A stretch of DNA of 64,000 nt from Pseudomonadota bacterium (GTDB taxonomy: Bacteria > Bdellovibrionota > Bacteriovoracia > Bacteriovoracales > Bacteriovoracaceae). Under the pieces are notes generated by a model that worked only from the letters and a program-made list of their open reading frames with translations, had not been told where the DNA came from and did not search any database. Shown piece by piece: positions 1 to 60,905 of this stretch. The stretch's first letter is position 1; each line of letters begins with the position of its first letter. The stretch lies in NCBI GenBank assembly GCA_027488375.1, contig JAIYBW010000002.1, positions 372,001 to 436,000 of the forward strand, given 5' to 3'. Both the position numbers and the translations under genes were made by a program.

Positions 1-94
1 TGGGCAAGTGATTTTGCATTTTTTTCTTAAAATCAATCAGTTCCCTAATTTTTCCCTCATCCCATTTATCAATTTTTTGTAATCTTAAATTCAT
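1..94 (-). CDS. Partial unknown gene, cut by the left window edge
   Basis: An open frame starts at the ATG complementary to 92-94 and runs off the window with 31 visible codons (MNLRLQKIDKWDEGK...). Its ATG overlaps the stop of the dikinase-like gene upstream in an ATGA arrangement (91-94), so it is very probably the next cistron of the carS-ubiA-dikinase operon and translationally coupled to it. The visible part is basic, with no signal peptide. It is too short to assign to a family. Confidence 0.55.
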   Translation of the reverse strand, partial: MNLRLQKIDKWDEGKIRELIDFKKKMQNHLP

Positions 95-2505
95 AAAACT
101 TCTATTCTACCCGTTCTACCATCAATTCGGATGTGATCACCTGTTTTTAATAATCTGGTAGCCTCCTTAACTCCTACAATGGTTGGAAGCCCTAATTCTC
201 TACCAATGATTGCCGTATGGGATAAAAGTGAGCCTTTTTCCGATACTAAGCCTTGGCTTTGAGACATTATATAAACCCAAGCGGGATCAGTGTTTTTTGT
301 TACAAGTATAAATTTTTTAAAATCATATTTAAAAATATCTTGAGGTGAATCAAGGACAAGGGCAACACCACTTGCCTCCCCCGGAGAAACACCTAGCCCC
401 TTAAATTCACATAAAATATTGACTCCCCAGTTCTGATGAAAAGCTTGGGCTTCAGATTCAACTGTAATGAGAAACTCCGGATAATGAGTTATTTTCGATT
501 TCCAATCTCGAGTTCTCATAAGATGTAGGATTTCATCTTGAGACATTTCGTCCTTCGCAAAAGAAAACCATTCTTCATGGTTAATTGAAAAAAAATCTCT
601 TAGTTCAATATCTTTGAATCCTGAAGACTCACTTTTTAACTGATGGGCCAATTTAATGATCAGTTCTCTGTATAGTTGATAGAATCGACCACGCCAAAGG
701 CGAGAACTTTCCCTATATTCAATACATTCCTTTGTGAATCTGAGAATCCATCTTTCAAAAGAAGAAAAATTTATGTCATAAAGCTCACTTCGAATAACCG
801 TTGATCGATTAAAATGACTTTCAAACTTACGGCTCCATTTCATGAGCTCTTGCAGGATCTTAGGGGCATTTTTAAGGGGCAGACTTTCTAATTTTAATTC
901 TTCAAATGAACGATCACCATATTCGTTTAAAAAACGTTGAACTTTTTTAACTTCTTCCCCGTAGTCTTTTTCATTCAGCTTTAAAAATAGTTCATCATAC
1001 GGATTTAGGCTTTTTGGAACTTCAATTGATATAAAAATGTCAATGAACTCATGACTCAAATCACCGATTAATTTTTGAAACTCCTCAAGTGGCTTGACTG
1101 AATCAACATTCTTATCGGTTTTTAAGATTTCAACTAAGAGATGTTGAGGAAGACTCCTCTTTAATAGAGATTTCTCAAGAACGCTGAGTCCAATCATGAT
1201 GAAAAAGTCATTAATTATGGTTAGACCAAAATTCATTTTTCGATTTAAGAGCTGAGTTAGGTAGAGAATTGTTTGTCTTGAGGAAGCCAGATTGCTTGTC
1301 TCTATTTTGATTTCCTCAATTTTCAATTTAAAAGAAGACATGAGGTCGGGAAAAATTTTGTTTCTTAATGCTGCAATCTTGAAAAAATGGAACGCTGTTA
1401 ATAAATTATCAAAAAAGTTACCTTGCGTTTCATGATAAGGGACATCAATATTCTCTATTTTTCCACCAATCATCTTATGCCAGTTTTTGATATTATTTTC
1501 TCCACCAGGAGAGGCCCTTAGAGCTGCATAATAATGCTCTAAATTATAGTACAGATGAGAATCAATACATGATATGAGACTCTTGGTGTGAGGTTTTAAT
1601 TTCTCTATCCTTTCAGGCCTCATACCCAAATGTTCAGCAGACTCCAAAAAGACATTTTCGTAAGCTTTTTGAACAAATCTTGCAGTTAATGGGCTCACCA
1701 CACCCGGATATGATTCTGAGAGATTAGTGTCGGCATAAAATCCCAAAGCTTCAAAAGGCCTGGTAATTGGCCTGATTTGAAAAATATAAAGTTTATTCTT
1801 ATAAAATCCCCATTCGATATCTGAAGGACAGGCCATTTTAATTTCAAGTTTAAGCCCCTGTTGATAGAGCTGATTTATTTCGGAAGAATCAAGGACTTCG
1901 CCACCCTGCCTCGCTTGAATTTCTCCCATCCGATTTAATATAATATGGTCTATGTCTGCGTGCCCAGAAACGACTCCCTCCCCCATCCCAAAAGCGGCAT
2001 CAATGGCGATAAGAGAGGTTGGTGAAATAGGATTTCGAGTAAAGATCACCCCACTTTTTACAACCTGAATCTCTTTTTGAACGACAACCGCCATCTTTAA
2101 TGAAGTCTTTATCTTCATTTTATCGATGTATCTTAAGACACGTTCAGATTCGACTGATTCATAAATTTTTAAGAGAGCTGCTTCCCAATTAGATACATCT
2201 AGATTGAAAATTGTCTCAAAGAGTCCAGCAAAACTTGCATCCGCCTGATCTTCACCGACCATTGAACTTCTTAAGACAACTTTTCCATTTTTCTTAATGA
2301 AGTTTTCAATCTCAGTTTTTATCTCAAGCGGGATCAGGCCCTCCCTTTTTACTTTTTCAAATATTGAGGTTGAAATAATAACAAAAGGAGCAATATTGAT
2401 TCCCCAACTGTGAAGTTGCTGAAGTTGAAATCCTTTCCCACCTACAATCTCTTTTGCACATAAGCTATAGGCCTCAATAATACCTAACCCCATAATGAAG
2501 ACCAT
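91..2505 (-). CDS. PEP synthase/rifampin-phosphotransferase-like dikinase (ATP-grasp plus phosphohistidine swivel domain)
   Basis: An 804-residue protein with the two end domains of PEP-utilising dikinases. The N-terminal PPDK/ATP-grasp region spans roughly residues 15-250 (VGGKGFQLQQLH, VVLRSSMVGED, GVIFTRNPIS, DIEWGF, QIRPITRP). The C-terminal swivelling domain, about 710-804, carries the phosphohistidine motif SLLSHTAIIGRE. The roughly 450-residue middle is divergent and lacks a recognisable PEP-binding TIM barrel, which resembles rifampin phosphotransferases, where the middle domain binds the acceptor. By family knowledge such enzymes split ATP and move phosphate through His onto a small molecule; the acceptor here is unknown. 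The gene overlaps ubiA by 22 bp (10 bp if it starts at the internal ATG at 2493), so it is in its operon. A second protein of this architecture lies at 8990-11299. Confidence 0.85.
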   Translation of the reverse strand: MVFIMGLGIIEAYSLCAKEIVGGKGFQLQQLHSWGINIAPFVIISTSIFEKVKREGLIPLEIKTEIENFIKKNGKVVLRSSMVGEDQADASFAGLFETIFNLDVSNWEAALLKIYESVESERVLRYIDKMKIKTSLKMAVVVQKEIQVVKSGVIFTRNPISPTSLIAIDAAFGMGEGVVSGHADIDHIILNRMGEIQARQGGEVLDSSEINQLYQQGLKLEIKMACPSDIEWGFYKNKLYIFQIRPITRPFEALGFYADTNLSESYPGVVSPLTARFVQKAYENVFLESAEHLGMRPERIEKLKPHTKSLISCIDSHLYYNLEHYYAALRASPGGENNIKNWHKMIGGKIENIDVPYHETQGNFFDNLLTAFHFFKIAALRNKIFPDLMSSFKLKIEEIKIETSNLASSRQTILYLTQLLNRKMNFGLTIINDFFIMIGLSVLEKSLLKRSLPQHLLVEILKTDKNVDSVKPLEEFQKLIGDLSHEFIDIFISIEVPKSLNPYDELFLKLNEKDYGEEVKKVQRFLNEYGDRSFEELKLESLPLKNAPKILQELMKWSRKFESHFNRSTVIRSELYDINFSSFERWILRFTKECIEYRESSRLWRGRFYQLYRELIIKLAHQLKSESSGFKDIELRDFFSINHEEWFSFAKDEMSQDEILHLMRTRDWKSKITHYPEFLITVESEAQAFHQNWGVNILCEFKGLGVSPGEASGVALVLDSPQDIFKYDFKKFILVTKNTDPAWVYIMSQSQGLVSEKGSLLSHTAIIGRELGLPTIVGVKEATRLLKTGDHIRIDGRTGRIEVL

Positions 2506-3362
2506 ATAAGAGAAAGAACAACGATGAGTATCTGACCTTCAGCGAGTTTTTTCAGTGATATAGATTTGCTTGGATTCCAAGCAAATTTCCAAAACCTTAA
2601 ACTAGAGATCATCATTAAAAGAGTAAAAAGAATTGAAACAATAGACGGACTCTGAATTAATTGAAAAATGTTGAGAACAGTGAGAAAAAGAATCATTTGA
2701 ATGATAAGGCATAAACTTACTGCGACTCGAGGTCCAAATATTTTTGAATAAGTCGTATAGCTTGTTTCATCCTTAGGCGCCCTTATTTTCCTCGAAAATT
2801 CCCAATTGGTGAAGATGAGGGGAATCGGCAAGATATATATTGATTTACTAAAATCAATATGAGGGATTGATTCTGCCATGACGACGAGCAAGTACAAAAT
2901 ATTTATAAACACAATAGGATGGTGAGATACTAAGGCCAGAGGAAGACTCTTTCTCATTTTCTCTTCGATAAAAAACCACTTTAACATCAAAAAAGCATAA
3001 AGAAGCACTAAAAATGATGCGCATAAAATAGTTATAGTTCCTAAGCTCGAAAAAATCATGATTAGAACACAAAGCCCTCCTAAAAATTTTAAATCATTTT
3101 TTAAAACTTTTCCCGAAGGAAGCGGACGCTGAGGAAAATTTTTTAAATCATCATCATAATCCTTAAATTCATCCATCACTCTCAAAAGAAGTGATAATGA
3201 GGCGGTAAAAAGACTCGAAGTTAAAAAACTTGAATGAAACTTAATCACTTGGCCTGAGAGTCGTAAAAAGACGAATTGAATAGAAAGCGCAGTGACTAAT
3301 GTCCCTATGAGTGAGGAAACTGGAAACATTTCAGATAAATAATATTTCAAACGATACAACAT
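2484..3362 (-). CDS. UbiA-family prenyltransferase
   Basis: A 292-residue, strongly hydrophobic protein with about eight membrane segments. Residues near 62-85 carry the UbiA Asp-rich signature in variant form (DEFKDYDDD, then RPLPSGKV), matching the DxxxD Mg-diphosphate loop and the conserved R-P-L-P-S-G that follows it. The second Asp motif is weaker (RAPKDETSYTTYSK, about 192-205). Family members join polyprenyl diphosphates to aromatic or glycerol-phosphate acceptors, including the archaeal lipid step DGGGP synthase. A good ribosome site (AGGA) precedes the ATG inside the end of the carS-like gene, which stops 6 bp upstream. Sitting beside a CarS homologue suggests a lipid acceptor rather than a quinone, but that is inference. 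Confidence 0.8.
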   Translation of the reverse strand: MLYRLKYYLSEMFPVSSLIGTLVTALSIQFVFLRLSGQVIKFHSSFLTSSLFTASLSLLLRVMDEFKDYDDDLKNFPQRPLPSGKVLKNDLKFLGGLCVLIMIFSSLGTITILCASFLVLLYAFLMLKWFFIEEKMRKSLPLALVSHHPIVFINILYLLVVMAESIPHIDFSKSIYILPIPLIFTNWEFSRKIRAPKDETSYTTYSKIFGPRVAVSLCLIIQMILFLTVLNIFQLIQSPSIVSILFTLLMMISSLRFWKFAWNPSKSISLKKLAEGQILIVVLSLIWSSLWG

Positions 3363-3368
3363 AAATTC

Positions 3369-3929
3369 CTAAAAGGGATTTTTCCTTACTTTAAGTCGAA
3401 ACAATAAATAATTAAAAATCAGATGAATGAACGTACCGGCAAACATTGTTCCCAGGAAGGTATTCCCATCAAGTGGAATCAAAAGTGCGTAGGCCATTAG
3501 ACATCCAAGTACTGAATCAGCTTGGTCGAATATAATAAAAAAAAGCGTAAATTTTTGGGAAGTTTGCCCCTCTTTGACCCCCAACCTTCTTTTGAGAAAT
3601 GAATTGGGAAGTTCTGCTAAGCAGTAAGCAAAACCAAGGCATAATGAAATGAAAATTGTAGAGTGAAGATGAAATACTGGAGCAGAAATATCCAATACAT
3701 CCTCAAATGTTCTTGCAGCTAAAACACCCGGCCAGCACGCCAGCGGCATGATAAAAAATCCTCGCCAAGTCTTGTTAAGGCCAAACCATCTTTGATGTAG
3801 CGGCTTCTTGAGGTAAGATAGGATATCCCATTTCACTGCAAGCATGTGGAGGATACCTCCAAAGATGAGCGGTAGAGCGAGGAGTATTATTCGAAAAATA
3901 TTTTCGACTGATAACCAATTTAAAATCAT
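3369..3929 (-). CDS. CDP-archaeol synthase-like (CarS/DUF46) membrane cytidylyltransferase
   Basis: A 186-residue protein with about five membrane segments. It carries landmarks of the CarS/DUF46 branch of the CDP-alcohol cytidylyltransferase superfamily: LNKTWRGF near residue 51, AYCLAELPNSFLKRRLGVK near 101-119 (the conserved E-L-P-N-S-F-x-K-R loop), and FDQADSVLG near 134-142 (the D-x-x-D-S metal/nucleotide motif). In archaea CarS activates unsaturated archaetidic acid with CTP, one step after a UbiA-type DGGGP synthase, which matches the neighbour downstream. It is first in its operon and only 11 bp from the divergent permease gene, with no Shine-Dalgarno. On its strand TATAAT (3941-3936) lies just before the ATG, so transcription may start at the start codon. 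Family assignment is firm; substrate is not known. Confidence 0.82.
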   Translation of the reverse strand: MILNWLSVENIFRIILLALPLIFGGILHMLAVKWDILSYLKKPLHQRWFGLNKTWRGFFIMPLACWPGVLAARTFEDVLDISAPVFHLHSTIFISLCLGFAYCLAELPNSFLKRRLGVKEGQTSQKFTLFFIIFDQADSVLGCLMAYALLIPLDGNTFLGTMFAGTFIHLIFNYLLFRLKVRKNPF

Positions 3930-3940
3930 AAGTAGATTAT

Positions 3941-5176
3941 ATGCTTAATCATGAAAATTCCTATCTTTTCAAATTTGCCTGGAAAAGTATTAGGAGAAAC
4001 GCTGGACGAAGTTTTTTTATTGGTTTTTCAGTCTCTTTAGCAGTTTTTATTGCTGTTTGGGTCGTTGCTTTTTTTGATGGCCTAAATTACCAAATAGAAA
4101 AAGCTGTTGTGAACACTAATATTGGGTATTTTCAATTACAAGAACCAACTTTTTCGAGATCAACTGATTCTACGACTCCCCTTGCCTTTAGTTCATACTC
4201 TCATTTGTTGAAGCAAAACTTTATTCAAGGCTATTCACCAGAATTAGTTTTAGATGGAAATATTTCAACTCCTGAGGGAGCTGCTGGTCTGGCAGTCATT
4301 GGCATAGATCCTGAATTACATCGCACTTTTCTTCCTTTATTCAGAAAAATAAAAAAAGGAAGATTTGTTGAACATCAAGACCAAGACGGAATTGTTATTG
4401 GCGAGGAACTGGCAAAAATCTTTAAATTTGCAGTAGAAGATCAGCTTGTCCTTAACTATCAAGATATCAATGGTGAACTAAGATCTGAGATCCTTAAAAT
4501 AAAAGGTATTTATCGTTTTAATGGAAAAGCATTTGAAAAAAGATTTGTTTATATTAATCAAAAAACTTGGCAACGAATTTTCCTGAATAAAGAAATGAAA
4601 GAAGTTCTCTTCAATAGAATTCCAATCATGACAAAAAATTTATCTGAACAAAAAAAATTAGAAAAAATAATTTCTCAAGAAAAAATTGAACTCAAGACAT
4701 GGAAAAATCTTAATCCCGAAATGGCGGTTGTTCTTGAATTTCATGATGGAATGATACAGTTTTTCTTTATTATTATTGCATTAACAATCATCATGACAAT
4801 TCTCACTCCTGTACAAATGTTATGGCAAGAAAGGCTTAAGGAACTAAGAATGCTTAACATTCTGGGCGTTAGTTCAGAAAAATTCTGGAAGATAGGCTTA
4901 TTTGAGGTCATCCAAATGATTATTTGCTCCACAATAGCTTCAAGTTTTTTACTTGTCGTGATCATTGGAATTCAATCAAAAACGGGGATTGATTTTCGTT
5001 TCTTAAATGATGGAGTCACTTTAGAGCGCGCAGGAATTAAACTCCCCAACATTATCTATCCTCATTTGGCCATTAATCAATTGGTTGTGACCTTTATTTT
5101 CGTTTTAATCATCCTTAGCATCAGCTATTTTTGGTCAATTCATAGAACACTAAAAAAGCTCGAGGTCGCTCCATGA
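3941..5176 (+). CDS. FtsX/LolC-type ABC exporter permease
   Basis: A 411-residue protein with the MacB/LolC topology. One membrane helix lies near residues 21-45, followed by a large periplasmic domain of about 220 residues, then three C-terminal helices (about 272-295, 320-345, 375-400) forming the FtsX domain. It opens a five-gene plus-strand run: two permeases, ATPase, LolA-like carrier, barrel. Its stop overlaps the next start by 4 bp (ATGA). By family knowledge such mechanotransmission transporters pass lipoproteins, lipids or other envelope molecules to periplasmic carriers without cytoplasmic substrate uptake. The start is only 11 bp from the divergent carS-like gene, with no clear ribosome site. 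Confidence 0.85.
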   Translation: MLNHENSYLFKFAWKSIRRNAGRSFFIGFSVSLAVFIAVWVVAFFDGLNYQIEKAVVNTNIGYFQLQEPTFSRSTDSTTPLAFSSYSHLLKQNFIQGYSPELVLDGNISTPEGAAGLAVIGIDPELHRTFLPLFRKIKKGRFVEHQDQDGIVIGEELAKIFKFAVEDQLVLNYQDINGELRSEILKIKGIYRFNGKAFEKRFVYINQKTWQRIFLNKEMKEVLFNRIPIMTKNLSEQKKLEKIISQEKIELKTWKNLNPEMAVVLEFHDGMIQFFFIIIALTIIMTILTPVQMLWQERLKELRMLNILGVSSEKFWKIGLFEVIQMIICSTIASSFLLVVIIGIQSKTGIDFRFLNDGVTLERAGIKLPNIIYPHLAINQLVVTFIFVLIILSISYFWSIHRTLKKLEVAP

Positions 5177-6381
5177 ATGCATTTATGTATTTGATCAAAT
5201 TCAGTTACCGAAATCTTTTTCGTGCTCCGAAAAGAACTTTGATCATGATTATAAGTCTGAGTCTCGGTTGTGGTTTCATCATTTGGGACTTAAATTTTGC
5301 GAACTCTGGATCAAGAGAAATCATGAAGGATTTCCTTAAACAGTATGCTGGCGTTTATCACATCACTCATGCCGAATATTACGATAGTAAAAACAAGAAA
5401 GAGTTTAACACCTACAGAACGATGACTGATGATGAACTTGAAAAGAAAGAACTTATCGAACAATCCACTCGTCGTGCTGTCGCTCCAGTTTTTATTTCAG
5501 GCGAGAAGAAGACTTTAGGAGTTCTCTTAACTGGACTTGAAGTTGAAAAAGAAAAAAAGCTTTCGACTCTTTACAAGGCAATCAAGTCAGGTGATTTTTT
5601 AAATAGCACTGGTTCAAAAGAAATAATCCTTGGAAAAAAATTTGCACAAAGGATTGAAGCCAAATTAGGAGATGAGGTTGCCGTTGTGGGACAAGCCTTA
5701 GATGGGTCTGTGGCCAATGATCTTTTTAAAGTTGTCGGCTTCCTTGATTTCGGAGGTGGAGATCTAGAAGAGTCTCTTGCATTCACTCAACTCTCATCAG
5801 CTCAAGAGTTTTTAAGCTTACCACCAGATCGATTCCATCAAAGGGTAAGTTTTGATGTCGAAACTGAGGGTCTACCAAAACTTAAACAATTGGGCGTCAC
5901 GAGTTGGTTTGATCTTATTCCAGAGATAGGATACTCCGTTCAATTTATCGATAACATTACTTGGTTTGCTTGCATCATCATTGTGATGGTTGTGAGTTTG
6001 GGTTTATCAAACACACTCATGATTACTTTTTTTGAAAGAGAACAAGAGTTTAATAGTCTTAATATTATAGGTGCAAAAACTAAGTGGATCACTTTCTCGC
6101 TGATGATTGAAGTTTTTATCATGGGCACAGTTGCGATCTTACTTGGAGTGCTCATGGGGTATCTCGCGGTCAAATACTTCTATTACCATCCCATAAATAT
6201 TGAACTTTTTACTGGTGGCAAACCCATTATTATGGGTGGTATGACAATTGTACCTCTGGTGCGTTTTTATGCTCTCCCTCAATATTTTTGGCAAGTACCT
6301 CTCATGATCTATTTCTTTTTATCACTCACGATGATTTATCCACTCATTCGAGTCATCCGCAGGAGCAAAAATGCAATTTGA
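5173..6381 (+). CDS. FtsX/LolE-type ABC exporter permease, second subunit
   Basis: A 402-residue partner of the preceding permease with the same layout. An N-terminal helix covers about 18-38, a periplasmic domain runs to about residue 255, and three helices follow (about 258-280, 310-335, 370-392). The conserved cytoplasmic stretch after the second helix reads TFFEREQEFNSLNIIGAK, the coupling-helix region of FtsX permeases. It overlaps its upstream neighbour by 4 bp and the ATPase by 11 bp. Two different permeases plus one ATPase mirrors LolC-LolE-LolD rather than homodimeric MacB. Confidence 0.85.
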   Translation: MNAFMYLIKFSYRNLFRAPKRTLIMIISLSLGCGFIIWDLNFANSGSREIMKDFLKQYAGVYHITHAEYYDSKNKKEFNTYRTMTDDELEKKELIEQSTRRAVAPVFISGEKKTLGVLLTGLEVEKEKKLSTLYKAIKSGDFLNSTGSKEIILGKKFAQRIEAKLGDEVAVVGQALDGSVANDLFKVVGFLDFGGGDLEESLAFTQLSSAQEFLSLPPDRFHQRVSFDVETEGLPKLKQLGVTSWFDLIPEIGYSVQFIDNITWFACIIIVMVVSLGLSNTLMITFFEREQEFNSLNIIGAKTKWITFSLMIEVFIMGTVAILLGVLMGYLAVKYFYYHPINIELFTGGKPIIMGGMTIVPLVRFYALPQYFWQVPLMIYFFLSLTMIYPLIRVIRRSKNAI

Positions 6382-7060
6382 ACTCAGTCATGTTGAAAAA
6401 ATTTACACTAGCTCTGAAGAAAATAAAGTTTTTGGTGCCAGAGATGTCTCGATAAATATTCATGAGGGTGACTTCCTTGCTCTCGTCGGCCCCTCTGGAT
6501 CCGGTAAAACGACGATACTCAATTTAATTGCAGGTCTCATTTTGCCCTCGTCAGGCTCATTGAAACACGGTGGAAAAGATATAACCTCTCTGACACTTGA
6601 AGAAAGAACTAAACACCGCTTGGATTATATGGGATTTGTTTTCCAGGATTATCAACTCCTCCCCATTTTAACGGCTTGGGAAAACATAGAGTTTCCTCTC
6701 CAGCTCAAGGGATTTAGTAAAACTGAGATTAAAGAGAGAGTTGATTGGGCGCTAAATCAGGTTGGTCTCAATAAAATGGGTAATAGATTCCCTAAACAGC
6801 TCTCTGGCGGACAACAGCAGAGGGTTTCTATTGCTCGGGCGATTGCCGGTCGGCCCCAGCTCATTCTGGCCGATGAACCAACGGCCAATTTAGATTCAAA
6901 AACGGCCCAAGAAATCATTGAACTTTTTTTAAAGCTTAATAAAGATTTTAATCTCACTTTTATTTTTTCAACTCACGATCAGCGCCTTATTGATCAAGTA
7001 AGGACTGTATTATATGTAAAAGACGGACAAATTTCAGAAGCAAGGACTCATCATGTTTAG
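6371..7060 (+). CDS. LolD/MacB-family ABC transporter ATPase
   Basis: A 229-residue ABC ATPase with all hallmark motifs: Walker A GPSGSGKTT near residue 39, Q-loop VFQDYQLLP, signature LSGGQQQRVSIARA, Walker B LILADEPTANLDS, and H-loop STHD. The D-E-P-T-A-N-L-D sequence is typical of the LolD/MacB/FtsE branch. It overlaps the second permease by 11 bp and the LolA-like gene by 8 bp, so all parts of the exporter are translationally linked. It should energise the two FtsX permeases at the inner membrane. Confidence 0.92.
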   Translation: MQFELSHVEKIYTSSEENKVFGARDVSINIHEGDFLALVGPSGSGKTTILNLIAGLILPSSGSLKHGGKDITSLTLEERTKHRLDYMGFVFQDYQLLPILTAWENIEFPLQLKGFSKTEIKERVDWALNQVGLNKMGNRFPKQLSGGQQQRVSIARAIAGRPQLILADEPTANLDSKTAQEIIELFLKLNKDFNLTFIFSTHDQRLIDQVRTVLYVKDGQISEARTHHV

Positions 7061-7796
7061 AAATTTTAAATTAAAAAATGTTGTATTTTGTGTCGCCATT
7101 GGGGCCAATGCTCAAAATGCTGATGAGTGGTCAAAATATGCAGAAAAACAAATGAGAGGCGATAGATCTCAATCTCAAATTGAAATGATGATCAAAACCC
7201 CTAATTGGGAAAGGACTCTGGAAATTGAGTCGGATATAGAAGGAAAAAACCTGGCCTTAAGTACGATCACTGCACCGGCCAAGGAAAAAGGAATCAGAAC
7301 TCTACGCATTGACAATAACATGTGGAACTATTTTCCAAAACTGAAAAGGAAAGTAGCAGTTTCCTCTTCTATGCTCCTTGCAAGCTGGATGGGCTCTGAC
7401 TTTACTAATGATGATATTTTAAAAGCCTCATCGATGGCTGAAGATTACCAGCATAAATTCCTGCCAGATCAAAAAATTGCCGGTAAAAAGTATAGAGTTA
7501 TTGAAAATAAAGCAAAATCAAATGCGAAAGTTATGTGGCCTAAAATTGTGACTTATGCCTCACCTATCGACTGCCTTCCACGTCAGTACCATTATTTTGA
7601 TAAAGAAAATAAACTTAAAAGAGTTTTAACCATGGATGATGTCAAAACATTTGATGGACATAAGGTACCCACTCTTTGGACCATGCAACCACAAGATGAT
7701 CTAAAAAAGAAAACAACCATTCGATATAAAACGATGACTTTCAAATCTAAATTTGGACCTAAACATTTTACCCAACAAAACCTTACGGACTTTTAA
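7053..7796 (+). CDS. LolA-like outer-membrane lipoprotein-sorting/carrier protein (PF17131 type)
   Basis: A 247-residue secreted protein; an N-terminal signal sequence ends near ANAQ (residue 21). The following sequence matches the LolA-like family often annotated as outer membrane lipoprotein-sorting protein, including PAKEKGIRTLRIDNNMW, YFPKLKRK, SSMLLASWMGSDFTNDD and MDDVKTFDGHKVPT. Family members adopt the open beta-barrel fold of LolA/LolB and usually sit beside RND or FtsX exporters. Placed between the ATPase and an outer-membrane barrel, it probably ferries the exported hydrophobic substrate across the periplasm. Its stop codon (TAA) overlaps the start of the barrel gene by one base (TAATG). 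Substrate unknown. Confidence 0.85.
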   Translation: MFRNFKLKNVVFCVAIGANAQNADEWSKYAEKQMRGDRSQSQIEMMIKTPNWERTLEIESDIEGKNLALSTITAPAKEKGIRTLRIDNNMWNYFPKLKRKVAVSSSMLLASWMGSDFTNDDILKASSMAEDYQHKFLPDQKIAGKKYRVIENKAKSNAKVMWPKIVTYASPIDCLPRQYHYFDKENKLKRVLTMDDVKTFDGHKVPTLWTMQPQDDLKKKTTIRYKTMTFKSKFGPKHFTQQNLTDF

Positions 7797-9007
7797 TGAA
7801 AAGATTATTATTTATTTTTTGCGTATTCAGTACGACGACAGCTTTTTCACAAATTAAAACAGAATTCTCTGGTAATCTTGAAGTTCAATCAAGAAATAGT
7901 TGGAATGGTGATGAAGCAAAGTCACTCAACTTAATCAATGACCAAATTCCAACTCAAGATTGGGATAGTGAGAATTTCAGTCTCATTTATGGAAATCTAA
8001 ACGCTAAAGTTGACTTTAGTAATTCTCGTCTTGAGTCCAATTTTTTTGCAAGACACTCAAAATCAGATCTTTATAAAAATAATTATATTGCCCCCCTCAT
8101 TTTCAATTTTCCAAATAAACTTGTGGCCCGCGAAGTCTTTAAATTACAAAATGATCAAGATGGAACTGATAATAAAACGGAATATATTCTTAATAAGTTT
8201 TATTATGAGTGGACTTATGGAGAGCATCGATTTGTTGCGGGAAGAATATATGTTAATTATGGAATCGGAGAAATTTTTAACCCGATTAATCCCTTTAATC
8301 AACCGACTGGTCTAACTTCAATATCTCAAGTAGCGCAAGGTAACGATGGTTTAAATTTTACTTTTTATAAAGATGATAAACACACTATTGATTTCTATTT
8401 TTTAGGAGATAAAAGCCTTCAGGGTTATGAAGGCCAAATCGATAAAACAATGTGGGCCCATGGCGAATATCAATGGTCAAATAATCTTCAACTTGATTAC
8501 GTCATTGGAGAAGATCAAAAACGCCACAAAGTAGGCGGACAATTCCGCTATAATTTTGAAGAATCGATGATCTTTCTTCAGACGCTTTATCAAACTCGCT
8601 ATACTGACGATATCGATGGCGACCAATCCCATCATCTTTGGGATGTGATGCTTGGATTTGATCAACAAGTGACGAATAAGTGGCATGTCAGAGTTGAGGG
8701 TGGACATCAAAAAAAGAATGAGTTTGTTACATCACTTTTTAATGATCGTTTTTTACCATCAGAGTATTTTATTGCTCTCATGAATCAATATGAAATTCAT
8801 CCACTTGTGAAACTCGGTGGGACAATCATCAATGATGTTAAAACCGGTTTTACCTATTTCATCACAAGGAACACTTATAGCTTTGCAAAAAGCTCAGAAG
8901 TTGAACTCTTTGCTTACCTGCCAATGGCCAAAGGTAGTGATATAGAAAACAAAGCTCAGAAACTTGTGACAACGGATGTAGGAGTTGCTTTAAGGACCTT
9001 CTTCTAG
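7796..9007 (+). CDS. Predicted outer-membrane beta-barrel protein
   Basis: A 403-residue protein with an N-terminal signal peptide (cleavage near TTAFSQ, residue 19), alternating polar/hydrophobic strands throughout, many aromatic residues and a terminal Phe-Phe. All of these are typical of a barrel recognised by the Bam machinery. It is the last gene of the exporter run and starts at the stop of the LolA-like gene. Barrels in this position accompany LolA-like/exporter modules in other proteobacteria. Its 3' end overlaps the convergent second dikinase by 18 bp. Specific family not recognised. Confidence 0.7.
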   Translation: MKRLLFIFCVFSTTTAFSQIKTEFSGNLEVQSRNSWNGDEAKSLNLINDQIPTQDWDSENFSLIYGNLNAKVDFSNSRLESNFFARHSKSDLYKNNYIAPLIFNFPNKLVAREVFKLQNDQDGTDNKTEYILNKFYYEWTYGEHRFVAGRIYVNYGIGEIFNPINPFNQPTGLTSISQVAQGNDGLNFTFYKDDKHTIDFYFLGDKSLQGYEGQIDKTMWAHGEYQWSNNLQLDYVIGEDQKRHKVGGQFRYNFEESMIFLQTLYQTRYTDDIDGDQSHHLWDVMLGFDQQVTNKWHVRVEGGHQKKNEFVTSLFNDRFLPSEYFIALMNQYEIHPLVKLGGTIINDVKTGFTYFITRNTYSFAKSSEVELFAYLPMAKGSDIENKAQKLVTTDVGVALRTFF

Positions 9008-11299
9008 GATTTCAACCGTTCCAATTTTACCATTTATTTTTATTAAACTGCCATCCTGAATCAATTGAGTGGCCTTGGTAAGGTTCAGGATCGCAGGAAT
9101 TCCATATTCACGTCCAATAACTGCAGCATGTGAAAGTAGTCCCCCTACTTCTGTTATGACTCCGCCTACTTTCGCCAAGACTGGAGTCCAACCGGGGTCT
9201 GTAAATAAGGTCACAAGAATATCGTCTTTCGTCAGATGATGAGTTTGATGAATATCTATAATGATTCTTGCTCTTCCGACTTTTTCTCCAGCACTGCAAC
9301 CTAGTCCTCTCAGGCCACTTGTTGCTTGATGATCAATTTGTTGAAGGATTTGACCACCAAATTCATTGGGAGATTGGAAATATCGATACCCCTGATATTG
9401 TAAAATCCTATCTTCAATTGACGGCAAATCTTTAATTTTCCCCATCGAAAATTCAAGAATCTCATTTAAATCAAACATGAAAATGTCTAAATCATTTAGC
9501 CCATTCCTGCGGCCAAAATCAAGTAGACCTAACCTCAATAAATAATAAGCTCGCGTTGAAAATGAGCGCATTTCTTCACGCATTTTTAAAAAATTTCTCG
9601 ATCTTCCCAACATTTTTAAAAAGTTGTGCTTATTAAAGAAATTAAGTCCGTGAATAAGTCTGCTTTTCGTTTTTTCAAACTCTAGAGAGGATTGTTTTGT
9701 TGATTTTTGGAATGATCTCACGAGATCATCAACCCAATCTTTGCGCTCTCCCCATCTTGCCACAGTCAGATCAAGTTCCGCTGGGCCATGGTGATAATGC
9801 TTTTTAAGAAATTTCTCTCTCGTTTCATAATAGGTTTGAGAATTTACCCCGTAAAAATCTGAGATGATCGCTAATTCTCCCAGATCCTCCTGCACATTTA
9901 GATGAGATACTCCGTCCAAAGAGGACATGAGTTCTATCTCATCACCCTGCTGATAGTTTTTTAGCTTTTTTAATTTTGTTTTAAACTCAGTTTGAAAATT
10001 AGAATTATTATAGATGGTACGAAAATAATTCCTTTCAGTTGTCAGTTGAAATTGAATCACCTCACTCAGCCATGCATAGAAATCAGGATCATTAAGGCGA
10101 GCTAAATCTTTCATCTTATCTTTGAGAAAAAAATCTCTTTGATTGAACGAATCCCTGAACTGATCAATCATAATCTCACAATCACGAAACTCTCCATAAA
10201 GCCCAATCATGATGGGTATGGCCTGTGAAAGAGAAGCTAAATTAAAGGGAGTCCTAACGGGGCCATTTAAACCGTAATCTTTTTGAATACCAAGATCCCG
10301 GTCAAAATCATTTTCATTAAAACCAGGTATTGATTTAAGACCTTCTTTGACTGCTCCCGCATTCCAATAGGCCTTTCCATAAAAAAAATAAATCCACTTA
10401 ATATCTTCCGCATTTTTTATCAAATTTATTCTTTTAAAATAATCTGCCATAGAAAACTGCAAAGCATTTCGATAAGCAGAAAACATTAAAGGTGTGCAAA
10501 CACGGGCCGAAATGCCTCCGTCTTTTAAATCTGCATTCGTTAGTTCCGGTACATCATTTCTAAAATGGACCGTCGTAATTGGCCTAGACTGAAGAATGTG
10601 TAGATTGCCATTTTTATCAATGGCCCATTCAATATCTTGAGGAGATCCAAAAAAAGCTTGGATCTTTTTCGCCTGCTCTATCAACTCGACAAGAAGTTCC
10701 TCAGGAAGAATAGTTTTTTCTTTATTTATCGTGGTTTCGATTATTTTGTGCGTCTTAATATTAAATGTCGTAGATGAAGGCGTGATCATTCCTGAGACGA
10801 GTCTTTCTCCAACGCCTTCACAGAATTCTAAATAAAACTCTTCTTCAAATCCATTCTTTGGGTTGAGAGTAAAAAGAACACCTGCAACAAGGGGATCAAT
10901 CATCTTTTGGACTAGTACTGACATTTTAAGATCGGCTGAAGAGGCTTTAATCCCTTTTACTTTTAAATAATCATGAACACGTTCAGCATCTTTAGACCTA
11001 AAACATTCGCCTATTTTTTTCTTGAGATCCTCTTCACTATTTATATTGAGAAAGGTCTCATAGAGCCCAGCAAAGCTGGCCCCCTTCATATCTTCTAATG
11101 AACAACTAGAGCGAACTGCAACGGGAAAGCCTCCAATTCCTTGGATGGCTTCACCAAGAACATATTCAGTCGTAATGATAAAAGCTGCAGGAACAGAGAA
11201 TCCCGCTTTTTTCAAAAGGTGCAAGTTTCTCGCTTTTCCCCCTATTGAATTGAGCTCATTTTGAGAAAGATCTTTGGTTCCAAGATAGGTAATTGTCAT
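8990..11299 (-). CDS. Second PEP synthase/rifampin-phosphotransferase-like dikinase
   Basis: A 769-residue protein laid out like the one at 91-2505. The N-terminal ATP-grasp domain (about 5-250) shows IGGKARNLHLLKKAGFSVP, PVAVRSSCSLEDMKGASFAG, GVLFTLNPK, DIEWAIDKNG and LQSRPITT. A long divergent middle follows. The C-terminal swivel domain, about 685-769, has the phosphohistidine motif GGLLSHAAVIGREYGIPAIL. No PEP-binding barrel is evident. It converges on the exporter run (18 bp overlap). Two such enzymes bracketing a lipid/exporter locus suggests two phosphotransfer steps on the same pathway or alternative substrates; this is inference. Confidence 0.85.
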   Translation of the reverse strand: MTITYLGTKDLSQNELNSIGGKARNLHLLKKAGFSVPAAFIITTEYVLGEAIQGIGGFPVAVRSSCSLEDMKGASFAGLYETFLNINSEEDLKKKIGECFRSKDAERVHDYLKVKGIKASSADLKMSVLVQKMIDPLVAGVLFTLNPKNGFEEEFYLEFCEGVGERLVSGMITPSSTTFNIKTHKIIETTINKEKTILPEELLVELIEQAKKIQAFFGSPQDIEWAIDKNGNLHILQSRPITTVHFRNDVPELTNADLKDGGISARVCTPLMFSAYRNALQFSMADYFKRINLIKNAEDIKWIYFFYGKAYWNAGAVKEGLKSIPGFNENDFDRDLGIQKDYGLNGPVRTPFNLASLSQAIPIMIGLYGEFRDCEIMIDQFRDSFNQRDFFLKDKMKDLARLNDPDFYAWLSEVIQFQLTTERNYFRTIYNNSNFQTEFKTKLKKLKNYQQGDEIELMSSLDGVSHLNVQEDLGELAIISDFYGVNSQTYYETREKFLKKHYHHGPAELDLTVARWGERKDWVDDLVRSFQKSTKQSSLEFEKTKSRLIHGLNFFNKHNFLKMLGRSRNFLKMREEMRSFSTRAYYLLRLGLLDFGRRNGLNDLDIFMFDLNEILEFSMGKIKDLPSIEDRILQYQGYRYFQSPNEFGGQILQQIDHQATSGLRGLGCSAGEKVGRARIIIDIHQTHHLTKDDILVTLFTDPGWTPVLAKVGGVITEVGGLLSHAAVIGREYGIPAILNLTKATQLIQDGSLIKINGKIGTVEILEEGP

Positions 11300-59986: not shown

Positions 59987-60905
59987 CTCCGACTTCTTGA
60001 CCAAGGTGCAAGTAAGTCTCGATCCCATTTTTTGTATTCTCAGTAATGTCACGAGAAGGTTTCCAAAGACCTTTTTCTCCGAGAACAATTACAGTTGAGC
60101 CTCCAAAAAGAAAATAGCCCTTCTCTTCGCCACGCAGGAATGGCTTTGTCCAACGATGACTTTGAACAATTTTTCCTACACAAATGGCACCCACTTCAAT
60201 ATAGGCAAGGCGACCAAAATTTTCTGTTTGAAGAATAGAAACATATCTTTCATTTTGGATAAAAATTTGATTTTTAAATTGCAAAGCAAAAGGATTCACT
60301 GAATCGTATGCTCCAGGAACAGCAAAATGTTCTAGCACTTTCCCATTATCTGGATAGTGATAACGGTGATAATCAACTGGACAAAGTCGAGCGATCAAAA
60401 GAGGTCCGCCATCAAAAATTTTTGCCATTTGATCATTTCCAACTAGATCTTTAGCGAGAAGATAATTTCCTTTAACTGGATACTTTGATTGTTCATCTAC
60501 GGCATCAAATCCTACATATCGAGCCTCTGCAAAAGCAGCCATTTTATTTTGGTCGGTCACGAATGAACGTTTGCCACGTTTAAATTTTCTAATGAAGAAC
60601 TCATTGAAGGTGCGATAAGAATCTCTCACATCTAATGATGGTCGAGTTCCAGATTCATAATCATCGATTGGGATATTAAATTTTTCAATAAAAGGTCTCA
60701 CCTTTCTATGACTAGAAGGGAGATCCTGAAACGCCCCATAAGCCTTAGAAAAATACTTATTCGTGAAGGCCATCCCAATTTTCTTGCCCGGAGCGGAGCG
60801 ATAGAGAAATTTGATAAACTTATCACCATAGACTTTTTCAACCTCAGTTTTACCCGTCATACGATTGAAGTATTTAATTTCTGGTGGATTGCCGGCCATT
60901 GTCAT
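59976..60905 (-). CDS. psd: Phosphatidylserine decarboxylase
   Basis: A 309-residue Psd: TFNEFFIRKFKRGKR, ARLCPVDYHRYHYPDNG (catalytic His), VGAICVGKI and FLFGGSTVIV, where G-G-S-T is the self-cleavage site that makes the pyruvoyl group (G-S-T motif). It forms phosphatidylethanolamine at the inner membrane. The variant G-G-S-T and length place it with the larger, eukaryote-like or Clostridium-type forms. No pssA is nearby. Confidence 0.92.
   Translation of the reverse strand: MTMAGNPPEIKYFNRMTGKTEVEKVYGDKFIKFLYRSAPGKKIGMAFTNKYFSKAYGAFQDLPSSHRKVRPFIEKFNIPIDDYESGTRPSLDVRDSYRTFNEFFIRKFKRGKRSFVTDQNKMAAFAEARYVGFDAVDEQSKYPVKGNYLLAKDLVGNDQMAKIFDGGPLLIARLCPVDYHRYHYPDNGKVLEHFAVPGAYDSVNPFALQFKNQIFIQNERYVSILQTENFGRLAYIEVGAICVGKIVQSHRWTKPFLRGEEKGYFLFGGSTVIVLGEKGLWKPSRDITENTKNGIETYLHLGQEVGVKA

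Follow-up and report, generated by a model that had tools for sequence, protein, structure and literature searches.

Our analysis concerns a window of 64,000 nucleotides from a Pseudomonadota bacterium placed by GTDB in the Bacteriovoracaceae (contig JAIYBW010000002.1), at the beginning of which four genes follow each other on the minus strand. In order of transcription, they encode a protein resembling the archaeal CDP-archaeol synthase CarS, a UbiA-type membrane transferase, a dikinase and a protein related to the GNAT acyltransferases (Table 1). The first two genes are separated by 6 bp, the UbiA and dikinase genes overlap by 22 bp and the dikinase and GNAT-like genes by 4 bp, a spacing that points to a single transcript. 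The reading-frame list returned the first three ORFs and their spacing exactly as described in the initial annotation, and the further coupled gene mentioned there starts at position 94 of the minus strand, encodes 372 aa and belongs to the GNAT family. The extent proposed for the system (91-3929) holds real genes, but its end at 3929 is too narrow: the cluster reaches 11299 inside the window and, at its other end, runs past base 1. Beyond the GNAT gene lies a convergent gene of 974 aa, whose product combines a class III aminotransferase domain with an acyl-ACP-reductase-like (AAR-like) part. On the opposite side, divergent export-type genes span 3941-9007, and a second dikinase gene (8990-11299) follows, again on the minus strand.

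Table 1. Genes of the cluster within the window, with the basis of each assignment.
Feature	Position	Strand	Size and basis
CarS-like CTP transferase, operon gene 1	3369..3929	-	186 aa; ORF, Pfam, profile, predicted fold
UbiA-superfamily membrane transferase, distinct subfamily	2484..3362	-	292 aa; ORF, Pfam, NCBIfam, alignment
Group B dikinase (UbiA-adjacent type)	91..2505	-	804 aa; ATP-grasp, middle domain, phosphohistidine swivel domain
Tandem-GNAT acyltransferase-like gene, 5' end only in window	1..94	-	372 aa in total; relatives, fold of a relative
MacB/FtsX-type (LolCE-like) permease, divergent from operon	3941..5176	+	Pfam/NCBIfam
Second MacB/FtsX-type permease	5173..6381	+	domain scan
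ABC transporter ATPase	6371..7060	+	domain scan
LolA_like periplasmic carrier, PF17131	7053..7796	+	domain scan
Exported protein, probably outer membrane	7796..9007	+	without Pfam hit; signal-like start and conserved position
Group A dikinase (adjoins CarS in Bacillota and other Bdellovibrionota)	8990..11299	-	Pfam/NCBIfam, tree

The CarS homology (DUF46/PF01864) claimed for the first gene was borne out by Pfam, by a profile and by the predicted fold. The protein scores 36.8 bits against PF01864 (cut-off 22, E 5e-9), a profile of 47 members finds CarS (5guf, E 6e-8) as the sole solved structure at E<=1, and the predicted model (pLDDT 94) has 5guf as its best Foldseek match (prob 1.00, TM 0.59/0.68, E 7e-3). 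G50, K53, T54, E106-S110 (ELPNS), K113, R114, G121, D135, D138 and S139 are invariant in 47/47 members. The protein stays below the NCBIfam equivalog for CDP-archaeol synthase (NF003114; 53.6 bits, cut-off 148) and, as judged from its sequence, belongs to a bacterial subfamily within the CarS family rather than to the archaeal equivalog. CdsA was rejected as an alternative identity: the Pfam, NCBIfam and solved-structure scans gave no CdsA family and no better score to CdsA, and none appeared among the 50 of 95 Foldseek matches listed.

The second protein is a UbiA-type enzyme, as annotated, though its PF01040 score (32.0 bits, E 1e-7) is slightly below the cut-off of 34.2; its best curated model is NF010118/PRK13592, with 142 bits and itself below its cut-off of 443. 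It falls in a subfamily of its own, in which D64/D68/D72 and E188/R191/K192/E199 are invariant in 40/40 members. The initial annotation had drawn on the logic of archaeal ether-lipid synthesis, in which the two enzymes would catalyse consecutive steps, the UbiA enzyme being a digeranylgeranylglyceryl phosphate (DGGGP) synthase and the CarS-like one a CDP-archaeol synthase. The profile of 40 UbiA members does have DGGGP synthase (6m31, 29.2 bits) as its best match among solved structures, with chlorophyll synthase nearly equal at 27.9, the CarS profile hits solved CarS only, and both aspartates of DGGGP synthase motif 1 (D66-x3-D70) are kept as D68 and D72 in 40/40. At motif 2 (Y-x5-K) the window protein has Y122 and K128, but the members vary, with the Y in 24/40 and the K in 27/40. 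The acids of motif 3, D180, D183 and D187 (PMC9385802), are not kept: they align, in a weakly aligned region, with K192, A195 and E199, of which the K and E are invariant in 40/40. The cut-offs of the NCBIfam models of both archaeal enzymes lie far above the scores of the window proteins, the UbiA-like protein reaching 14.7 bits with the geranylgeranylglyceryl phosphate (GGGP) geranylgeranyltransferase (DGGGPS) model against a cut-off of 296. GGGP synthase was over the cut-off in 0/129 genomes of the order, with a single weak match in genome G127; the control search was positive in 7/14 genomes, including all four archaea. On the basis of this search and of the motif comparison we rejected an archaeal-type ether lipid, which we regard as very improbable, and the consecutive-step argument is not supported.

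Within the order, the UbiA subfamily is detected at E 1e-15 in 92/129 genomes, and its 25 top-scoring matches all come from genomes with a CarS-like protein. The genome studied here has two further UbiA members elsewhere, with much higher Pfam scores (176 and 122 bits). Different UbiA neighbourhoods are described in the lipocone paper (PMC12419801).

The third gene does encode a dikinase-like phosphohistidine enzyme (PPDK_N 1.8e-39, PEP-utilizers 4.4e-23); the Pfam matches of the first three genes all exceed chance. The cluster proved to contain two such enzymes of different types. A tree of 98 rows (quick method, midpoint root) separated dikinases found beside CarS or export genes (group A), those beside UbiA or HMG-CoA-reductase-like (HMGR) genes (group B) and a third set mostly beside CarS in loci of the HMGR-CarS type (group C). 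These groups have SH-aLRT support of 99-100, with UbiA-adjacent genes in B and CarS-adjacent genes in A and C. The window carries one dikinase of group B, the third gene of the operon, and one of group A, beyond the export genes. Both combine ATP-grasp and swivel domains and retain the catalytic His, in the motif EKGSLLSHTAIIGRE at residue 756 of the group B protein and EVGGLLSHAAVIGRE at residue 717 of the group A protein. The His motif is present in 31/31 rows of group A, a Cys preceding the His in 12 Bacillota rows, and in group B in 46/49 rows by pattern and two more by alignment, the last row being gapped. Small-molecule dikinases built from these domains act on hydroxyl groups, which they phosphorylate, and give mainly AMP (PMC12167813).

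The GNAT-like protein of the window organism gives no Pfam hit, and its family was assigned from its relatives and their fold. The model of a relative from locus L076 (pLDDT 92) is a tandem GNAT with 2wpw and 7q3a as best matches (E about 1e-12 to 1e-11). By fold, several different relatives, namely clavulanate-pathway, mycothiol synthase, N-myristoyltransferase and amino-acid-transferase proteins, are all near, a spread that points to no particular donor or acceptor.

The neighbourhood is conserved within the order and among 80 wider loci. The CarS-like protein occurs in 35/129 genomes of the order, 15 of the 35 lying within the genus, the genome studied here included. Stretches from the 34 other genomes, several of which stop at contig ends, were compared by BLAST clustering, which found a homologous dikinase in 25/34 and UbiA in 17/34. 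Eight of 14 genus relatives preserve the gene order of the whole block, which runs from the convergent 974-aa gene (TamH-like, see below) as far as the second dikinase (the LolA-like gene being uncalled in one), and a P450 gene lies between the dikinase and GNAT genes in eight of the 14. A two-gene pair of UbiA and dikinase without CarS was also seen in the order (L156, L157, L160).

For the wider comparison, we searched with profiles the loci of the best 80 of at least 541 CarS-like relatives in GTDB contigs, where CarS is present in 80/80 by construction; the control consisted of 20 stretches, each 20 kb long, on two contigs of the window's own genome. The partners found most often were dikinase (66/80), UbiA (52/80) and GNAT (49/80). 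A CDP-alcohol phosphotransferase was present in 40/80 loci for the main family and in 43/80 with a second family, and phosphatidylserine (PS) decarboxylase (PSD) in 23/80. An AMP-ligase and a fusion of an HMGR domain to a kinase domain were each found in 31/80, and the TamH-like gene in 15/80. Export-type partners were less frequent (FtsX 12/80, LolA-like 11/80, exported protein 10/80, MMPL 10/80). In the control stretches, dikinase and MMPL were each found once and the other families never. Of seven core families, three or more are present in 54/80 loci and none in 4/80.

Gene order differs between groups of bacteria. In Bacillota (for example Streptococcus cristatus, Enterococcus sp., Pseudobacteroides, Lachnospiraceae) it is CarS, dikinase, CDP-alcohol transferase, PSD, UbiA, dikinase and GNAT, and in Gammaproteobacteria (Photorhabdus, Marinobacter, Thalassolituus) UbiA, HMGR-kinase, dikinase, GNAT, AMP-ligase, CDP-alcohol transferase and CarS. 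Some Bacteroidota and Bdellovibrionota and one planctomycete have HMGR-kinase, CarS, dikinase, a protein of unknown family and a methyltransferase, often with an acyltransferase and a desaturase. On a CarS tree with 62 rows labelled by phylum from record titles, some of them broad, seven phyla show one or more partner genes beside CarS; with locus L136, Spirochaetota becomes the eighth, and Chloroflexota is represented by a single row with no partner gene. One Gemmatimonadota locus (L085) brings together a TamH-like gene, two dikinases, MMPL, CDP-alcohol transferase, CarS, UbiA, PSD, a LolA-like gene, P450 and GNAT.

The initial annotation had proposed an unusual prenylated or CDP-activated lipid as the product, and it is the CDP-activated part that gains support from gene fusions. 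In eight proteins (L090, L091, L104, L107, L112, L123, L136, L142) a CDP-alcohol transferase domain is fused to the CarS-like domain, and in one (L116) an AMP-ligase is fused to a CDP-alcohol transferase; the consensus of the CDP-alcohol transferases of the relatives carries the D..DG..AR motif. Another AMP-ligase is fused to a UbiA of the window type in a second cluster of the window's own genome (L155, described below), and a similar fusion occurs in L162. As far as domain architecture is a guide, these fusions connect CarS with the transfer of head groups and UbiA with the activation of acids. They bear on an alternative in which the CarS-like protein would be a CTP-dependent alcohol kinase feeding an activated chain to the neighbouring UbiA. 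Phytol and dolichol kinases belong to the same superfamily as CarS, and CarS adjoins UbiA in the window and accompanies it in the 52 loci mentioned above. Against a kinase of this kind stand the eight fusions and the CDP-alcohol transferases of 43 loci, the 28/80 CarS-like loci that have no UbiA in the stretch, HMGR-CarS-dikinase loci included, and the fold, whose first match is CarS, and we consider it improbable.

Head-group genes, by which we mean CDP-alcohol transferase and/or PSD, are present in 51/80 loci. A PSD hit stands at the PSD place of the cluster in all five Bacillota genomes in which positions were converted; a single PSD hit per genome is seen in Streptococcus cristatus, Enterococcus and Desemzia, and two in Pseudobacteroides and in a Lachnospiraceae genome. 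In Streptococcus cristatus and an Enterococcus (L139, L103), the seven-gene form of the cluster contains the sole PSD hit of the genome. Streptococcus and Enterococcus are not known to make phosphatidylethanolamine (PE). Beside CarS-dikinase genes of Bacteroidota and others, hydrophobic-looking proteins of about 195-250 aa without Pfam match were observed (L111:12873-13454(+), L126:12905-13660(+)), and these may stand in for the CDP-alcohol transferase.

Taken together, these observations suggest that the genes of the window are one form of a widespread bacterial cluster family making a phospholipid-like compound by a CDP-alcohol route, a reading that we favour with evenly balanced confidence. 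The product is probably an undescribed phospholipid-like molecule and not an archaeal lipid. The direction of the pathway, its substrates and the role of the export genes are proposals built on the families, catalytic residues, gene order, fusions and tree groups seen in the sequences. A hydrophobic core alcohol would be built by the UbiA enzyme together with the tandem GNAT and the group B dikinase, and may be modified by the convergent TamH-like aminotransferase-reductase here and by a P450 in several relatives. The group A dikinase would then phosphorylate a hydroxyl of the core via its phosphohistidine, with ATP yielding AMP and phosphate, and the CarS-like enzyme would join CTP to the lipid phosphate, giving CDP-lipid and pyrophosphate. 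A CDP-alcohol phosphotransferase would swap CMP for an alcohol, probably serine, which PS decarboxylase would convert to ethanolamine; in the window's genus, chromosomal enzymes from elsewhere in the genome would have to act at this step. Lastly, the FtsX/ABC/LolA-like/exported-protein set, a LolCDE-like system, would carry the product to the outer membrane.

Several observations weigh against this CDP-alcohol route. Neither CDP-alcohol transferase nor PSD is found in the window's own cluster or in nine near-relative loci (L072-L080), and in the stretches examined from 19 Bdellovibrionota rows CDP-alcohol transferase is present in 0/19 and PSD in 6/19; these absences lower our confidence. The genome does have two CDP-alcohol transferases and one PSD outside the cluster, and since the head-group enzymes lie only there, the head-group transfer step is weak for this organism, which makes it the chief weak point of the reading here. 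Four of the 80 loci (L080, L081, L115, L144) have no core partner at all, although L080 retains the export genes and the TamH-like gene and L115 begins at a contig end; many of the 80 are cut by contig ends. The core cannot be identical everywhere, given the 28 loci without UbiA. The counts express association rather than a calibrated probability, because the loci that were counted also served to build the profiles, some of them are close relatives of each other (for example five Photorhabdus) and a single genome supplied the control.

The absence of head-group genes from the clusters of the window's genus would also fit a secreted product of the prodigiosin or tambjamine kind, for which the TamH-like enzyme would make a fatty amine and a PigC-like dikinase would condense it with another part. 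The convergent gene has the domain order of TamH, a class III transaminase followed by an AAR-like reductase (PMC9594044), and both dikinases score against the prodigiosin ligase PigC (NF052631; 175 and 260 bits). These scores are far from the curated cut-off of 1300, however, no gene for making pyrroles was noticed among the neighbours scanned, which were not all of them, and the 15 loci with a TamH-like gene compare with 51 for CDP-alcohol transferase or PSD. A product of this kind is unlikely. Alternatively, the operon could serve common quinone or housekeeping phospholipid synthesis, with the grouping only incidental, as housekeeping families also include UbiA, CDP-alcohol transferase and PSD. 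The higher-scoring UbiA members, the PSD and the two CDP-alcohol transferases of the genome all lie outside the cluster, however, and the set is met again in other phyla, fusions included, which makes this explanation hardly credible. The only PSD match of the genome is at 59994-60608 (-) of the window, far from the cluster.

Returning to the CDP-alcohol route, its phosphorylation step may come in two forms. The 31 HMGR loci (e.g. L104:933-3746(+), L111:7647-9977(+)) encode an HMG-CoA-reductase-like domain followed, at the C-terminus, by an EcKL/APH-type kinase domain. The group A dikinase is likewise found in 31 loci, and the two occur together in 0/80, as if the HMGR-fused kinase replaced the dikinase. 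Against giving this exclusion much weight, each label changes twice on the CarS tree, so that it reflects few evolutionary events. The HMGR consensus of the relatives keeps what we take to be several class I HMG-CoA reductase motifs. HMG-CoA synthase was over the cut-off in one and weak in another of eight HMGR-type genomes searched, the search having also covered one Bacillota genome that lacks an HMGR cluster. Because the synthase is mostly missing, we favour a thioester substrate other than HMG-CoA as plausible for the HMGR-like enzyme.

The second cluster of the genome, on contig C6 outside the window (L155:4314-17770), places the AMP-ligase-UbiA fusion beside a dikinase and a GNAT gene, together with DUF3419, which we take to be the BtaA betaine-lipid family, and a P450. 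It also holds a metallo-beta-lactamase-fold protein, two reductase-like proteins and a diacylglycerol-kinase-like protein, and in L158, L162 and L164 the DUF3419, reductase and kinase genes are kept near AMP-ligase, UbiA and dikinase. This arrangement suggests that UbiA and the group B dikinase make a core able to take different head groups.

More tentatively, and with somewhat less confidence than in the CDP-alcohol route itself, the cluster family could represent a third bacterial route to CDP-activated lipids. Here a dikinase and an intramembrane transferase of UbiA type would assemble the core, which would not be built on glycerol 3-phosphate. A further dikinase, or a kinase fused to an HMGR-like thioester reductase, would phosphorylate this core and the CarS-like enzyme would activate it, with forms in a Streptococcus, an Enterococcus, Photorhabdus, Marinobacter, Flavobacteria and Bdellovibrionota. 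We found no description of the cluster in the titles and abstract openings listed by our searches of open-licence PMC papers. If our interpretation is right, several bacterial phyla have a dedicated pathway for a lipid apparently not yet named, and bacterial matches to the CDP-archaeol synthase family have a function unrelated to archaeal lipids, which would correct a misleading label in arguments about the lipid divide. It would also assign a substrate class to the many dikinases matching 'phosphoenolpyruvate synthase' models, and account for the PS decarboxylase of a Streptococcus and an Enterococcus.

Compared with known systems, the CarS-like protein shares with archaeal CarS (5guf) the CTP-transferase fold and the KT..G, KRR and DQ.D motifs, but the bacterial subfamily has ELPNS in place of GDMAGS (47/47) and a longer loop ahead of DQxDS; it also scores far below the archaeal equivalog cut-off, in an order without GGGP synthase over the cut-off. 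The UbiA subfamily resembles DGGGP synthase in its best solved match, its motif 1 aspartates and, in part, its Y-x5-K, and differs in having E..RK......E where the motif 3 acids would be and in its best NCBIfam model. The convergent gene is similar to TamH of tambjamine biosynthesis, a class III transaminase fused to an AAR-like reductase (PMC9594044), but adjoins lipid-type enzymes. The Bacillota clusters recall the route from CDP-diacylglycerol to PE by PS synthase and PS decarboxylase, as genes for a CDP-lipid synthase-like enzyme, CDP-alcohol transferase and PSD stand together there. Unlike that route, the clusters have a dikinase replacing glycerol-phosphate chemistry, a CarS-like enzyme rather than CdsA, and UbiA and GNAT in addition, and the window's own cluster has neither of the two head-group enzymes. 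Finally, the dikinases have the ATP-grasp and swivel phosphohistidine domains of rifampin phosphotransferase (RPH) and HpeHI, arranged alike and with the His conserved (PMC12167813); they differ in scoring 170 and 256 bits against the rifamycin phosphotransferase equivalog (NF041857, cut-off 999) and in forming groups tied to lipid genes.

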